Shown in pieces: positions 3,650-15,226 of a stretch of DNA of 64,000 nucleotides (the first letter of the stretch is position 1; the number at the start of each line of letters is the position of its first letter). This DNA is from Rhodococcus qingshengii JCM 15477 (GTDB lineage: Bacteria > Actinomycetota > Actinomycetes > Mycobacteriales > Mycobacteriaceae). Below the pieces are notes generated by a model that saw nothing but the letters and a program-made list of their open reading frames with translations, was not told where the DNA came from and did not search any database. Both the position numbers and the translations under genes were made by a program. The DNA is taken from the NCBI RefSeq assembly GCF_023221595.1, contig NZ_CP096563.1, positions 3,925,501-3,989,500 on the forward strand. Reading direction: 5' to 3'.

Positions 3650-4430
3650 CCTCGGCGGCCGATCGAAAGTAGTCGGCCGTCTGCGTGTCCGACGGGTAGA
3701 ACGATTCGATCGCAATCTCTGCGAGCGTGACGTCGCGCGGCGTACCGAACACGGTGGTGGTGCTGAACATCGCCAGTTCGGTATCGCCGACGCGTACACG
3801 CAACGGAACCAGCAGGGAATTCGGGCGGTCGTCGTGCCAGTCTCCGCCGCTGGGATAGGCGCGCAGCTCGTCGAGCATCGACGACAGCTGCGCATCCGCA
3901 CTGACCTCCACTTCCCGAGCCAGCCTTGTGAGCAGGTGGGCCCGCCACTGCGCGAGGTTCACGATCCGCGGCGCCATGCCCTCGGGATGCAAGCTCAGAC
4001 GCAATACGTTCACCGGTGGTTCCAGGAGGAAATCAGCGGCGCCCGCGGTCAAAATTCCCACGGCCTGGTTCCCGGCGACCATCTCCCACTGCTGATCGAC
4101 CACCACGGCCGGATACGGGTCATGCGCGTCGATGATGCGATCGATGGCCTCACTCACCGCTGACATCGGCGCTTCTGCCAACGACTTCTGCGAGTACTCC
4201 GGCGCGTGGCCACTTGCCAGCAGAAGCGTGTTCTGTTGTCGTAGAGGAACATCCAGACATTCGGACAGGTGAAGAATCATGTCCCGGCTCGGCTTGGAGC
4301 GGCCGGTTTCGATGAAGCTCAGATGCCTGGTCGACACTCCTGCCGCCGCCGAGAGTCCCAACTGAGTGAGCCTTCGCCGCTCCCGCCACCGCTTGAGTTC
4401 GGAGCCCACGTCCATCGTCTCGAAGGTCAT
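3624..4430 (-). CDS. XRE-family regulator with MmyB-like ligand-binding domain
   Basis: This 268-residue protein has an N-terminal helix-turn-helix (about residues 10-65; the segment from RRLTQLGLSAAAGVS to FIETGRSKPS is typical of Cro/CI-type HTH). A MmyB-like PAS-related domain at about 100-260 follows, with the family's AVVVDQQWEMVAGN start and LLVPLRVRVGD strand. Proteins of this family are thought to bind a fatty-acid-like ligand. It is divergent from the SnoaL-like gene at 4569, the most likely target besides itself. A TAACTT -10 six bases before the ATG suggests a leaderless transcript. Confidence 0.85.
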   Translation of the reverse strand: MTFETMDVGSELKRWRERRRLTQLGLSAAAGVSTRHLSFIETGRSKPSRDMILHLSECLDVPLRQQNTLLLASGHAPEYSQKSLAEAPMSAVSEAIDRIIDAHDPYPAVVVDQQWEMVAGNQAVGILTAGAADFLLEPPVNVLRLSLHPEGMAPRIVNLAQWRAHLLTRLAREVEVSADAQLSSMLDELRAYPSGGDWHDDRPNSLLVPLRVRVGDTELAMFSTTTVFGTPRDVTLAEIAIESFYPSDTQTADYFRSAAEVTGTSCRT

Positions 4431-4436
4431 TCTTTC

Positions 4437-4442
4437 AAGTTA
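4437..4442 (-). promoter_or_regulatory. -10 element for leaderless XRE regulator
   Basis: Read on the minus strand, TAACTT is followed by six bases and then the ATG at 4430, so transcription is predicted to begin at the start codon. Confidence 0.5.
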
Positions 4443-4568
4443 GCGACCCGAGGTAGCCGAGGCCATGACCTCAGAGGTAATCGACCCGACGCAGTTTCGG
4501 AGTAACAGTGGTCTCAGCCGGCGAGGCCGCCGGACATTCACCACCGGAAACTGATCAAGGGAGCGACC

Positions 4569-4934
4569 ATGAGCGACTTCGACGCAATCGCCGACGCCTA
4601 CATCGACATGTGGAACGAAACCAATACCACCGCCCGTAAAGCACGGGTCGAGCAATTGTTCGCACCCGGCGGTCGCTACACCGATCCGCTCGCGGACGTC
4701 ACCGGACACGATCAGATCGACGCGATGATCAACGCTGTGCAGCAACAATTTCCGGGCATGCACTTCACCCTCGTCGGACCTGTGGACGCGCATCACCGAC
4801 AGGCCCGATTCGGTTGGGCTCTCGGCCCGTCGGGGGCCGAGTCACTGATCGACGGATTCGACGTACTCGAACGCGACGACGACGGCCGGGTGACGCTTGT
4901 CCTCGGGTTTCTCGACAAGGTGCCTTCGGCCTGA
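4569..4934 (+). CDS. SnoaL-like / NTF2-fold protein
   Basis: This 121-residue protein has the alpha+beta cone pattern of SnoaL/NTF2-like proteins: DFDAIADAYIDMWNE at the start, a RYTDPLADVTGHDQI segment, and a closing strand rich in Val and Leu. The fold houses small polyketide cyclases, isomerases and binding proteins; no catalytic residues allow a specific substrate here. A GGGAG Shine-Dalgarno lies upstream of the ATG. It is divergent from the MmyB-type regulator, which may control it. Confidence 0.75.
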   Translation: MSDFDAIADAYIDMWNETNTTARKARVEQLFAPGGRYTDPLADVTGHDQIDAMINAVQQQFPGMHFTLVGPVDAHHRQARFGWALGPSGAESLIDGFDVLERDDDGRVTLVLGFLDKVPSA

Positions 4935-10652: not shown

Positions 10653-11402
10653 ATGCCGAGCGACGCAATTGTGCAACCTGTCACTGCAGAGTTGACCGGT
10701 CGCGAAGCGCGGTGGGAGCGACACAACTCCGAGCGTCAGAAACGGATACTCACCTCGGCGGTCGAACTGATCGAAGAGCGTGCGGCAGGTGCCGAGGTGT
10801 CCGTCCAGCAGATCGCCGATCGTGCCGGCCTCGCCAAGTCGGTGGTGTACCGCCAATTCAGCGGCCGAGACCACCTCGATCGACGAGTGCGAGCGTTCGT
10901 GCTCGGCCAATTTGCGGCGGCCCTGGATGCTTCGATGAGCATTTCGGTAGGCACTCTCGACCAGATCCTGACCCGAACCATCAGCGCCGTCGCCGAGTGG
11001 ATCACCGAGCATCCGCGGATTCACGAGTTCATGGGTACCGGCCCCACCGACTACGACGACGAGAGCATCGACGCGATCAGCAGTCTGAAGGCCACAATCG
11101 CCGACTCCGCCCGCACCACTATCACCGAAGTCGGTCGATCCGTGGGGATCGACTCCTCACCCTTCGATTCACTACCGTTCGCAGTGGTGACAATGGTCGA
11201 GGGCACGCTCACCCACTGGGTCCGAAGCACCGATCCGAAACCGAGCCGCGAAGAGATCGTCGCCGACCTCGCGAAATACACCTGGTACATGTTCGACGGC
11301 GTTGCCCGCTCGAGCGGACTACAGATCGATCCCCATGTCGAATTGTCCACGCTCATAGCCGAGCTGGTGTCCTCCGACGGAGGAACTTCGCGGCTGGACT
11401 AG
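10653..11402 (+). CDS. TetR-family transcriptional regulator
   Basis: This 249-residue protein has a TetR N-terminal DNA-binding domain at about residues 28-75 (ILTSAVELIEERA, VSVQQIADRAGLAKSVVYRQ). An all-helical ligand domain follows. It is tail-to-tail with the AurF-like oxygenase gene, overlapping by four bases. The convergent arrangement is less typical for regulator and target, so the target is not obvious. Confidence 0.85.
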   Translation: MPSDAIVQPVTAELTGREARWERHNSERQKRILTSAVELIEERAAGAEVSVQQIADRAGLAKSVVYRQFSGRDHLDRRVRAFVLGQFAAALDASMSISVGTLDQILTRTISAVAEWITEHPRIHEFMGTGPTDYDDESIDAISSLKATIADSARTTITEVGRSVGIDSSPFDSLPFAVVTMVEGTLTHWVRSTDPKPSREEIVADLAKYTWYMFDGVARSSGLQIDPHVELSTLIAELVSSDGGTSRLD

Positions 11403-12388
11403 ATCCGGGTCTTGTCGGAACGCTTCGGCTCGCCGCGGTAGCGGGCGTAGTCGCCGTCGATGCGCAGCTTTCGCCACGCACGCTTCGACACCGGATTCAT
11501 CAATCCGAGTTCGTCTGCCAGGGCTCGCATTTCGCCGAAGTAGTTACCCAGGATGCGGCGTGAATGCGGGCTCCCCCAGAAGGCGCTCTTCATCACCTCG
11601 TCCGGGATTCCGAATTCTTCGGCGAATTCCTTTGGCGGTGACATGATTTCACCCGCAAGCCAACGCATCGCGCCGGGGAAGGCGACCGATGTGATGGCTC
11701 GACTCGTACGACTGAGTCTGGGGACGTGATTGCGCAGGAACTCGTGAGCAAACGAGATGTGTCTCGCTTCTTCGGCGATGTGGATCTCCATGGTGCGGAG
11801 CATCGCCGGCGGCGTGTCCTTACCCTCACGGATGAGATCCTTCTGGAAGTGGTCGATCGGTTCTTCACCAGCCAGAATGCCGATGAAGAAGATGACCGGG
11901 AACTTTGCTCCCAGCACTCCGATGATCGGCGACAGTCGCCGGAACATCGGACGCATACCCGGCACGTCGATGTCCATGCGATTGACGAGTTCCTGGAACA
12001 TCTGGATGTGATTGCACTCTTCGGTCATCTCGTGCAGGCAGTACCGGAACTCAGGCGACTGGTTGGGTAGCGCCATGATGTATTGCAGCATTCCCCGGAT
12101 CAAGATGCTCTCGAAGGCCGAACCCACCTTGGTCACGTTCGCCTGACGCCACATTCCCATGGCGATTCGACGCTCCAACGACTGATCCTGGTACCACTGC
12201 GTCGCCCCGAGGGGGTCCGACACGGACGAGAGCACCCATCTCGGATCATGCGGATCGATCGCGAACTCTGGTGAATCCCAGTCGATGTCGAGATAGGGAT
12301 CGAAACTGCGGGCAACTGAGCCCTCGGACAAAGTCTGCAGTACCTGGTGGTACGGCTTTTCCACTTCGATCGACGCTGACCGAGCCAT
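11399..12388 (-). CDS. AurF-like diiron oxygenase
   Basis: This 329-residue protein belongs to the ferritin-like diiron oxygenases related to AurF (p-aminobenzoate N-oxygenase). Metal ligands are visible as ExxH motifs in CLHEMTEECNHIQMF and EIHIAEEARHISF, with a further Glu in SAFESILIRGML. The substrate is unknown. The ATG at 12388 is chosen because GGAGAC precedes it and the conserved sequence begins there; an in-frame extension to 12580 is likely non-coding. It may share a promoter region with the DoxX-like gene upstream on the same strand. Confidence 0.82.
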   Translation of the reverse strand: MARSASIEVEKPYHQVLQTLSEGSVARSFDPYLDIDWDSPEFAIDPHDPRWVLSSVSDPLGATQWYQDQSLERRIAMGMWRQANVTKVGSAFESILIRGMLQYIMALPNQSPEFRYCLHEMTEECNHIQMFQELVNRMDIDVPGMRPMFRRLSPIIGVLGAKFPVIFFIGILAGEEPIDHFQKDLIREGKDTPPAMLRTMEIHIAEEARHISFAHEFLRNHVPRLSRTSRAITSVAFPGAMRWLAGEIMSPPKEFAEEFGIPDEVMKSAFWGSPHSRRILGNYFGEMRALADELGLMNPVSKRAWRKLRIDGDYARYRGEPKRSDKTRI

Positions 12389-12491
12389 CGGTGTCTCCTC
12401 ACGGCCAGTCCGTCGATTGCAGTCGACGGACTTGAATGAGGTCAAACATAATGGGACACCGCGTCCCACGCAACCCCCTCGGGGGCCTATT

Positions 12492-12932
12492 TCAGGCCCG
12501 ACGCAGCGGGATGATCTCGCGAACCTTCTCGTCCCGGAGATACAGTCCCGCCCACATGACGATTCCGGTGTAGACGGCAAACAGGGTCGTGCTCAGCAGA
12601 GGCTGTTCAGCTCGAAGGTTGGTCAACACCGCTCCCCCCAGGTAACCGGTGAGCAGAATCGCGCCGAGTATCGACGTTTGCGGAATCACGTACAGCGCAA
12701 GGCAGATCAGTTGCACCACCCCAGCCGTCAATGCCAGCGAGTCCGGCAACCCAAGTTCAGCCGACGCATCCTTGACTGTCTGAAGGTTGAGAATGTGAAT
12801 GATGCCGTCGAAGAGCATGAAAACGACGAACAGCCCACTCAGGACGTATCCGAGCTTGCGAGCCGTGGCCGAAGGTGTCGTCGTCGTGGCGTTACCGGAA
12901 ACAGTTTCGTTGTGGACGGGCTGGGTGGTCAT
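12492..12932 (-). CDS. DoxX-family membrane protein
   Basis: This 146-residue protein has four hydrophobic helices, starting with ARKLGYVLSGLFVVFMLFDG, as in DoxX/DoxD-like proteins. These are often linked to redox or quinone metabolism. The chosen ATG has an AGGAG six bases before it. It lies about 100 bases upstream of the AurF-like gene and could be co-transcribed with it. It is divergent from the TPP riboswitch operon. Family confidence is moderate. Confidence 0.68.
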   Translation of the reverse strand: MTTQPVHNETVSGNATTTTPSATARKLGYVLSGLFVVFMLFDGIIHILNLQTVKDASAELGLPDSLALTAGVVQLICLALYVIPQTSILGAILLTGYLGGAVLTNLRAEQPLLSTTLFAVYTGIVMWAGLYLRDEKVREIIPLRRA

Positions 12933-13071
12933 CGGAATCTCCTGGGGCGAAGGCGAGCGGCCGGTTGCCACTTCGCTTGCAATTACGACTCCCGAGCGAT
13001 CGAAAACTCATCGCGCCGGCCGTTACAACGCACCCGGCGTTCAGGACGATTCACCTCACGTGGTCTGATGG

Positions 13072-13151
13072 ACGGTGACACGGGGTGCCGAAAAAGTCGG
13101 CTGAGATCAGACCCGATGAACCTGACCAGTTAGCACTGGCGGAGGGATGTC
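13072..13151 (+). ncRNA. TPP riboswitch (THI element)
   Basis: The conserved aptamer blocks are all present in order: CGGGGTG, GGCTGAGATCAGACCC, GATGAACCTGACCAGTTAGC, and CTGGCGGAGGGA. P1 can form from GACA (13076-13079) with TGTC (13148-13151). The GGAGG used as ribosome-binding site by the ATG at 13155 is part of the conserved 3' strand of the aptamer, so TPP binding should hide it. This implies direct translational repression. Confidence 0.95.
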
Positions 13152-13154
13152 GAC

Positions 13155-13946
13155 ATGACCGAACAGCAATTTCAGCGCGCACTCAGCCTGGACGAGCAGA
13201 TCGTTCTGATCACCGGTGGCGCCCGCGGGCTCGGCGCCGCACTGAGCCGAGCATTCTCCCGCTCGGGCGCCCGCGTAATCGTGAACTACAACAAGAGCCG
13301 CGATGCCGCCGAGGCCCTGGTCGCCGAACTGGGTGAGGATCGCACCTTCGCAGTCCAGGCGGACGTGACGGACCGCAGTTCCGTCGACCAGTTGTTCTCC
13401 GCTGCACGCGAGAGATTCGACGCACCGATCTCGACCGTGGTCGACAATGCACTGGTCGACTTCTCGTTCAACGGCGATGCACGGCCGAACGCGGACACGA
13501 TCACCTGGGCCGACTTCGACTCTCAACTACGCGGAGCTGTTGCCGGAACACTCAATACCACCCAGGCAGCGCTACCAGGCATGCGCGAACTCGGCTTCGG
13601 CCGAATCATCACTGTCGGAACCAATCTGGTCCAGAATCCGGTAGTTCCGTACCACGACTACACCGCTGCCAAGGCCGCACTGTTGGCACTGACACGGACG
13701 CTGTCCGCCGACCTCGGTCCGGACGGGATCACAGTCAACATGGTCTCGGGCGGCTTGCTCCGCACCACCGATGCGAGCGCCGCAACACCGGAAGCCGTCT
13801 TCGACATGATCGCGGCAAGCACTCCCCTGCGCCGAGTCACCACGCCGGACGAATTTGCCGACGCTGCACTCTTTTTCGCCTCACCATGGTCACGGGCCGT
13901 GACCGGTCAGAACCTGGTTGTCGACGGCGGACTCGTCAAGAACTGA
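13155..13946 (+). CDS. SDR-family oxidoreductase under TPP riboswitch
   Basis: This 263-residue short-chain dehydrogenase has the cofactor motif TGGARGLG (20-27) and the active-site Tyr169 and Lys173 (YTAAK). It is odd in two places: Thr156 stands where the catalytic Ser usually is, and the NNAG structural motif is replaced by DNAL (97-100). Automated naming would be 3-oxoacyl-ACP reductase, but the riboswitch points to thiamine or thiamine-related metabolism. Its stop codon overlaps the start of the flavin monooxygenase gene (TGATG), so both are made together. The substrate is unknown. Confidence 0.85.
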   Translation: MTEQQFQRALSLDEQIVLITGGARGLGAALSRAFSRSGARVIVNYNKSRDAAEALVAELGEDRTFAVQADVTDRSSVDQLFSAARERFDAPISTVVDNALVDFSFNGDARPNADTITWADFDSQLRGAVAGTLNTTQAALPGMRELGFGRIITVGTNLVQNPVVPYHDYTAAKAALLALTRTLSADLGPDGITVNMVSGGLLRTTDASAATPEAVFDMIAASTPLRRVTTPDEFADAALFFASPWSRAVTGQNLVVDGGLVKN

Positions 13947-15226
13947 TGGGCGCACAGCTGCGGATAGGTGCGTTCCTGCTCGGGTGCGGACATCACAGTG
14001 CGGCATGGCGTCATCGCGACTCACCGGTCGAAAGTCTCGGCGACATCACGTATTACGAGTCGCTCGCCCAGATCGCCGAACGCGGCAAGCTGGACGCCGT
14101 CTTCTTCGCTGACGGTCACAGTGTTCGCGAACCCGAGTCGGGTGCGTCGTGGTTTCTCGAGCCGATCACCGCATTGACTGCCATGGCACGAGCGACAGCG
14201 GACATCGGCCTGGTGACCACCATTTCCACCACTTTCTACACGCCATTCCACGCGGCACGACTGTTGGCCTCGCTCGACCACATCAGCGGCGGACGGGCCG
14301 GCTGGAACGTCGTGACCTCGATGTTCGACCAGGAGGCGCGCAACCACGGACTCGAGGCGATGCCCGATCACGCCTCCCGATATGAACGAGCCGACGAATT
14401 TGTCGAAGTGGCCCTCGCATTGTGGGATTCGTGGTCGGAAGACGCGCTGATCCTCGACCGGGCGGGACGTTTTGCCGACGCAGGCAAGATTTCTCGCATC
14501 GATCACGACGGCAAGCATTTTCGTGTCGACGGCCCGTTGACGGTTCCTCGATCCCCGCAGGGCAGACCGGTTTTGTTTCAGGCCGGGGCGTCCGAGCAGG
14601 GTCGCGATCTGGCGGCGCGTCGCGCCGAGGCAATCTATTCGGTTGCCTACGACTTACCCAGCGCACAGGCCTACTACGCGGACGTGAAATCGAGAATCGA
14701 GCGAGCCGGCCGGGATCCGAGTTCGGTCGCCGTGATGCCGGGACTGGTCACCTACGTCGGCAGCACCGTCGCCGAGGCCAGGGCGAAGAAGGCCGAACTC
14801 GATCTCCTGCTGCCCACCGAACAGTCGATACGCCAACTCTCGTTGTTCACCGGACAGGATTGCGAGAACTGGGATCTCGACGGGCCCGTGCCCCCGTTGC
14901 CTCCACTCGAAGCGTTCACCGGGCCGCAGGGCCGCTACGCCACTATTTTGCGGATCGTCGAGAAGGACGCACCGACTGTGCGGGAACTCCTCGGGACGCT
15001 CGCTGCGGGTGGTGGTCACGCAACGATGATCGGAACACCGGAGTCGATTGCCGACGAGATGGGATCCTGGTTGAACGGCCGCGGTGCCGACGGTTTCAAT
15101 CTGATGCCGCCGACCTATCCGCAGGGCCTGGAAGATTTTGTCGATCACGTGATTCCAGTGCTGCAGGCGCGTGGGTTGTTCCGTCGCGAATACGAGGGAG
15201 CGACTCTGCGAGAAAACCTCACCTAG
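13946..15226 (+). CDS. NtaA/SnaA/DszA-type flavin-dependent monooxygenase (LLM class)
   Basis: This 426-residue TIM-barrel flavin monooxygenase carries the subgroup signature STTFYTPFHAARLLASLDHI followed by SGGRAGWNVVTS. Relatives use FMNH2 from a separate reductase to oxidise sulfur or nitrogen compounds: DszA dibenzothiophene sulfone, NtaA nitrilotriacetate, SnaA pristinamycin. No flavin reductase gene is adjacent. Translation is coupled to the SDR gene. The shared TPP riboswitch suggests oxidation or salvage of a thiamine, thiazole or pyrimidine compound; this is inference. It overlaps dinB at the 3' ends by four bases. Confidence 0.87.
   Translation: MGAQLRIGAFLLGCGHHSAAWRHRDSPVESLGDITYYESLAQIAERGKLDAVFFADGHSVREPESGASWFLEPITALTAMARATADIGLVTTISTTFYTPFHAARLLASLDHISGGRAGWNVVTSMFDQEARNHGLEAMPDHASRYERADEFVEVALALWDSWSEDALILDRAGRFADAGKISRIDHDGKHFRVDGPLTVPRSPQGRPVLFQAGASEQGRDLAARRAEAIYSVAYDLPSAQAYYADVKSRIERAGRDPSSVAVMPGLVTYVGSTVAEARAKKAELDLLLPTEQSIRQLSLFTGQDCENWDLDGPVPPLPPLEAFTGPQGRYATILRIVEKDAPTVRELLGTLAAGGGHATMIGTPESIADEMGSWLNGRGADGFNLMPPTYPQGLEDFVDHVIPVLQARGLFRREYEGATLRENLT

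Follow-up and report, generated by a model that had tools for sequence, protein, structure and literature searches.

A TPP riboswitch before an SDR and monooxygenase operon of Rhodococcus qingshengii points to an undescribed step in vitamin B1 salvage

Thiamine pyrophosphate (TPP) riboswitches (Rfam RF00059) are best known from thiamine operons, and the genome of Rhodococcus qingshengii JCM 15477 has two such sites before thi genes. The third of its three TPP riboswitches, examined here, lies in a 64,000-nucleotide stretch (contig NZ_CP096563.1, positions 3,925,501 to 3,989,500 of the forward strand; hereafter the window). It is of the same aptamer class, but it precedes a short-chain dehydrogenase/reductase (SDR) and an NtaA-type luciferase-like monooxygenase (LLM), for which we found no described B1 role, and in the window species the Shine-Dalgarno sequence lies inside the aptamer. 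Compared with the described monooxygenases CmoJ/YtnJ, NtaA, EmoA, BdsA/DszA, DmoA and RcaE, the LLM of the pair belongs to a separate clade with a TPP riboswitch and an SDR partner. CmoJ, an S-(2-succino)cysteine-type monooxygenase, is 42–43% identical to it (compared by sequence alone), and a Pfam scan of five neighbouring window proteins found no sulfur, chelator or flavin-reductase family. TenA salvage is comparable in serving the 4-amino-5-hydroxymethyl-2-methylpyrimidine (HMP) branch and in being TPP-regulated in the window genome; TenA is hydrolytic, however, whereas the enzyme families of the pair imply oxidation and reduction, and the two systems coexist. An SDR named OarX is reportedly among the THI-element-regulated genes of Rodionov et al. 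(2002), so regulation of the SDR may already have been noted; OarX is possibly of the same SDR family, and it is not known to have a monooxygenase partner. ThiV of SAR11 and others, as the available text of PMC2211319 and PMC11452348 describes it, resembles a proteobacterial neighbour of the pair in its SSF family, panF-like matches and TPP riboswitch. That likeness is by family and not to the SAR11 sequence, and the symporter neighbours the pair in Proteobacteria whereas none was seen beside the window pair. Literature searches returned no title on an SDR-LLM pair among the matches listed (in part the best 20 of 35 to 244), and the words "monooxygenase" and "dehydrogenase" are absent from the main text, as available, of Sun 2013 (PMC3766115), whose gene table is a supplement. 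What is new here is a probable TPP-controlled salvage operon with an oxidative step lacking a prior B1 assignment.

We place the probability at roughly 60% that this is a thiamine-starvation operon supplying the pyrimidine (HMP) half of vitamin B1. The initial annotation, made from the letters alone, had proposed a complete TPP aptamer before a two-gene operon of an SDR and an NtaA-type monooxygenase, and all of these identifications hold, with scores well above their cut-offs (Table 1). The aptamer is the sole Rfam match at gathering threshold in the whole window, with the full model (1–105) aligned by cmscan. Both reading frames are intact, and the SDR stop and LLM start overlap as TGATG; the ATG of this overlap was taken as the LLM start, and the in-frame ATG at 13886 given in a mechanical list of open reading frames was not used. 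The Shine-Dalgarno sequence sits 8 nt 5′ of the SDR start codon, within helix P4 (its 3′ strand) and the junction that follows, so that, judged by the Rfam structure line, folding around the ligand is expected to occlude it. A sigma-70 promoter scan found none. The folding energy of the aptamer as a single sequence was unremarkable (z −0.76, with 46 of 200 shuffles as good) and is uninformative; the evidence for the aptamer is its covariance score and its conservation, not the folding of a lone sequence. On sequence grounds, control of the operon by the TPP riboswitch is near certain, and we infer that TPP binds the aptamer and acts on translation.

Table 1. Features of the riboswitch operon, in window positions
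Feature	Position	Strand	Evidence
TPP riboswitch aptamer RF00059	13071..13164	+	cmscan 67 bits vs gathering 54.3, E 5.6e-11
Shine-Dalgarno GGAGGG, in 3′ part of aptamer	13141..13146	+	sequence read against Rfam structure line
SDR, 263 aa	13155..13946	+	NCBIfam PRK08642 (NF006393) 437 bits vs cut-off 292
NtaA/DmoA-type FMN-dependent LLM monooxygenase, 426 aa	13946..15226	+	TIGR03860 543 bits vs 279.7

The linkage between riboswitch and pair was followed through several sets of loci, which overlap (some are the same strains), and the counts are not additive. A survey of 28 genomes of the genus gave 22 loci, the window's included, with an orthologue of at least 71% identity; the SDR adjoins the LLM in all 22 and the aptamer precedes the pair in 21, the exception being L017. 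By contrast, eight paralogues at 47–51% identity had neither SDR nor aptamer (0/8 for both). Searches of the family and class added 20 loci, all with aptamer and SDR. In a set of 80 named loci a plus-strand aptamer lies upstream in 77 and the SDR beside the LLM in 75, using an aptamer model built partly from those same loci; Rfam at gathering, run on nine of the 80, agreed with our model except on two strands, missing the plus-strand aptamer of L112 and the minus-strand one of L103. Nine further loci of the same family (66–73% identity), chosen among 22 family matches that previously had no assigned locus, had the aptamer in 9/9 and the SDR in 7/9. Four of 20 listed plasmid matches were examined. 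Aptamer, SDR and LLM stand together on plasmids of Rhodococcus, Pseudochrobactrum (Alphaproteobacteria) and Mesobacillus foraminis (Bacillota) (3/3), the last with an LLM of 52% and an SDR of 48% identity; a Sinorhizobium relative at 49% identity has neither aptamer nor SDR. The Mesobacillus locus is the one sampled in Bacillota, and relatives between 52 and 61% identity are barely sampled. The linkage is thus held across three phyla. Within Gammaproteobacteria the pair is patchy, since a Halomonas LLM query at E ≤ 1e-150 matched one of 321 genomes, its own, and in a class sample LLM matches at the same threshold occurred in 6 of 345. Two loci carry SDR and LLM but gave no convincing aptamer when the search filters were switched off, the best score being 8.2 bits: L017, in genome G014, and L133, in Kocuria. 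At L109 and L125 the only aptamer is that of a symporter. Upstream of the pair in L133 there are apparent transposase remnants, read by eye.

The pair was therefore not found to be widespread without its riboswitch, the aptamer being kept in nearly all orthologues examined, and the expectation that TPP riboswitches would accompany it in other genomes is borne out. This constancy of place, together with compensatory changes in the variable helices (6 of 21 predicted pairs altered on both sides among 20 aligned aptamers), argues that the aptamer is not there by chance, and chance neighbourhood of riboswitch and pair is ruled out. Such LLMs are common, with 11 LLM-type matches in the window genome including the pair's own, and an ordinary catabolic SDR and LLM might have come under a TPP riboswitch either by coincidence or to scavenge sulfur or nitrogen; we regard this as highly improbable, as the aptamer is retained over three phyla and accompanies none of nine paralogues.

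Both enzymes can be told apart from their many relatives. The window SDR alone passes the PRK08642 cut-off among 121 SDR-like matches of its genome, and the family label "3-oxoacyl-ACP reductase" is an annotated name only. The classical SDR active site consists of Asn, Ser, Tyr and Lys; in 93 of 93 distinct orthologues Asn98, Tyr169 and Lys173 are present, and Thr156 takes the usual place of the Ser in all 93. For the LLM, the TIGR03860 match covers residues 8–424 and the fold is close to that of solved members, the closest being YtnJ/CmoJ, NtaA and BdsA. In a tree of 69 LLM sequences, eight of them paralogues, the 61 clade members split off with full support, and 27 Pseudomonadota fall on one branch (support 91). 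Twenty-two positions are specific to the clade when set against nine paralogues, and Mesobacillus has 18 of the 22. In L102, L111 and L113 (Dietzia), L145 and L146, the SDR is absent and the aptamer directly abuts the LLM start, suggesting that the LLM is the core enzyme. At L082 (positions 4369–4640, from a metagenome-assembled genome of Nocardiopsis), apparently just the two ends of the SDR gene are left between aptamer and LLM, as judged by eye, which reflects either a deletion or an assembly error.

The pair very probably performs a so far undescribed step by which part of vitamin B1 is recovered, as its sequence context indicates, and its gene neighbourhoods and the make-up of carrier genomes suggest that this step likely belongs to the pyrimidine branch. 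The initial annotation had left the choice between thiamine, thiazole and pyrimidine oxidation or salvage; conservation and gene context support such a step and narrow it towards the pyrimidine. It had also remarked that the operon has no known thiamine gene, which is true of the near window neighbours and fails in relatives where thiM-thiE or a thi cluster adjoins the pair. An SSF-family sodium symporter stands in the flanks of all 27 proteobacterial loci of the named set (profile scans covered three by NCBIfam and two by Pfam, PF00474 in 2/2, and the symporter of L112 is cut by the contig end), and in 27/27 it has its own TPP aptamer upstream on its strand by our model, the weakest being L103 at 37.9 bits. 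ThiV symporters are panF-like, TPP-regulated and a likely HMP transporter of SAR11, according to the available text of PMC2211319, PMC11452348 and PMC10881298. In Glaciibacter superstes the pair adjoins ThiE, ThiO, ThiG, a ThiF/MoeZ-like protein, parts of an energy-coupling factor (ECF) transporter and ThiD, and in Cryobacterium it adjoins close homologues of that cluster (by similarity); each of these two loci has one clear and one weak further aptamer, and ThiC was not found in either genome. Since the recognised neighbours are uptake and synthesis genes, it is quite unlikely that the pair instead defends against antivitamins or damaged B1 (bacimethrin, oxythiamine and thiochrome are examples), destroying or repairing an analogue when TPP falls. 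Expression at low TPP would fit such a role, and one of the structures closest to the LLM is that of the riboflavin lyase RcaE, an enzyme with a vitamin as its substrate. A repair that yielded HMP would merge with pyrimidine salvage.

The thiamine genes of the window genome point the same way. Of its other two TPP riboswitches, one precedes thiO-thiS-thiG with thiE divergent (ThiO by similarity) and the other tenA, a thiY-like gene and an ABC gene. ThiC was not found in this genome, while ThiE, ThiS, ThiG and TenA are present; because ThiS and ThiG are kept without ThiC, the pyrimidine is the missing half. R. erythropolis NBRC 15567 has ThiC. Within the R. erythropolis/qingshengii group ThiC is absent in four genomes (G000, G001, G012 and G022) and present in G002, and its absence in these four relatives is a recent loss. 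Among 48 carriers of the pair, ThiC is absent in 11, all of which keep ThiE. TenA is missing as well in three of nine ThiC-less carriers tested (Glaciibacter, V. jeotgali and Nocardiopsis ATB16-24). In a family sample of 251 genomes, with carriers defined by an LLM at E ≤ 1e-165, no ThiC was found in 31 of the 52 carriers vs 36 of the 199 non-carriers (Fisher p 2e-8). The ThiC match of G583 (L088, Dietzia alimentaria) is a 72-residue fragment with an internal stop (58 bits), perhaps a decayed thiC in a pair carrier.

The three ThiC-less carriers that also lack TenA still have ThiE, and in some ThiC-less genomes a thi cluster adjoins the pair. Both observations would fit a pathway that uses oxygen and not ThiC to make HMP from a common metabolite, in place of the salvage of a B1 vitamer. 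We consider this very unlikely, as uptake systems accompany the pair in Glaciibacter and the named Proteobacteria, a ThiC match is found in most carriers, and building the ring de novo would seem to need more than two oxidoreductases. Also, R. equi without thiC, which may or may not carry the pair, needs thiamine, as reported in the available part of PMC2947987. Two simpler roles are not supported: the pair is no plain replacement of ThiC, nor of TenA.

Several observations weigh against assigning the operon to supply of HMP. ThiC is matched in 37 of 48 carriers (one by a fragment only). TenA is present in 16 of 21 named carriers tested and, within the family sample, in 50 of 52 carriers vs 110 of 199 non-carriers (p 3e-9), meaning that the pair is not simply a TenA substitute. 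The association tests for ThiC and TenA ignore kinship and several of the genomes are drafts, and one genus-level group, in which every carrier lacks ThiC, supplies 15 of the 31 ThiC-less carriers. Five of the 80 named loci and two of the nine further ones have no SDR next to the LLM, so that either another reductase serves its step there or a two-step scheme is wrong or incomplete. No SSF symporter was seen within 6 kb of the alphaproteobacterial locus L138. In the available text of PMC2947987, R. equi without thiC, which may or may not carry the pair, did not grow on HMP. Finally, in Pseudarthrobacter NamB4 the operon reads aptamer-thiM-thiE-SDR-LLM, and thiM is a thiazole gene; at two other Pseudarthrobacter loci (L091 and L094) the aptamer directly precedes the pair. 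The NamB4 order would suit a salvage of the thiazole side, in which the pair oxidises a thiazole vitamer or adduct and feeds ThiM and ThiE. We think this unlikely, given that the half missing from the window genome is the pyrimidine and that ThiV symporters are described, in the accessible portions of PMC11452348 and PMC10881298, as pyrimidine/HMP transporters. The chief alternatives to pyrimidine salvage are salvage of the thiazole and breakdown of antivitamins.

For pyrimidine salvage we propose the following scheme, in which the substrate and the two reactions are suggested by the chemistry of the NtaA/DmoA/CmoJ/RcaE family. At low TPP the aptamer would stand open and the Shine-Dalgarno sequence would be free, and both enzymes would be made; bound TPP would close the aptamer over it. 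The substrate could be a degraded or substituted B1 pyrimidine, imported by ThiV-like, ThiXYZ-like or ECF transporters. With FMNH2 and O2, the LLM would hydroxylate the CH2 group through which an N or S substituent is attached to the 4-amino-2-methylpyrimidine ring, the substituent would drop off by C–N or C–S cleavage, and a 5-formylpyrimidine would be left. The SDR, acting as an NAD(P)H reductase, would turn this aldehyde into HMP, which ThiD and ThiE could then use. Such a two-step scheme would give the SDR a role and would explain the uptake systems and the retention of the pair in ThiC-less genomes with ThiE. According to the available text of PMC7758286, thiamine auxotrophy is common across Rhodococcus, and the thiamine need of R. 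equi without thiC also appears in the portion available of PMC11893733. It is possible, and we offer this only tentatively, that the pair is an oxygen-dependent, ThiC-free route to HMP that works by aldehyde release and reduction from an undescribed B1 precursor vitamer or adduct, and that it serves many "pyrimidine auxotrophs".

The position of the aptamer relative to its first gene varies between relatives. Of the 77 plus-strand aptamers of the named set, seven abut the first gene (four of the R. erythropolis group and the three SDR-less Dietzia), one aptamer lies far upstream, and the other 69 are spaced by about 37–117 nt (once 156), with gene starts taken from tblastn matches and hence approximate. 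The placing of the ribosome-binding site inside the aptamer, claimed from the window, accordingly holds for the R. erythropolis group and the SDR-less Dietzia and not for most relatives; as a general feature it is ruled out. The platform downstream contains a stretch complementary to the 3′ strand of the aptamer beyond mononucleotide shuffles (p ≤ 0.05) in 19 of the 69 spaced loci and not in the other 50. Relatives may thus differ in how the operon is controlled.

Around the window operon, the five nearest proteins by Pfam scan are AurF-like, DoxX-like, TetR, DNA polymerase IV-type and MarR, with no visible B1 link. The genes for the AurF-like diiron N-oxygenase and the DoxX-like protein (window 11399–12971, minus strand) are divergent to the riboswitch operon, and close counterparts of them were not found beside the pair in other genera.

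If the ThiC-free route is real, many "pyrimidine auxotrophs", the window species included, would need no intact HMP or thiamine. Which microbes need which part of B1 is predicted from a handful of genes (ThiC, ThiV, TenA and others), and a TPP-regulated oxidative step shared by three phyla would change such predictions. The conserved operon is present in rhodococci that are non-pathogenic, tractable and ThiC-less. A monooxygenase family so far associated with pollutants and sulfur compounds would also gain a function in vitamin metabolism.

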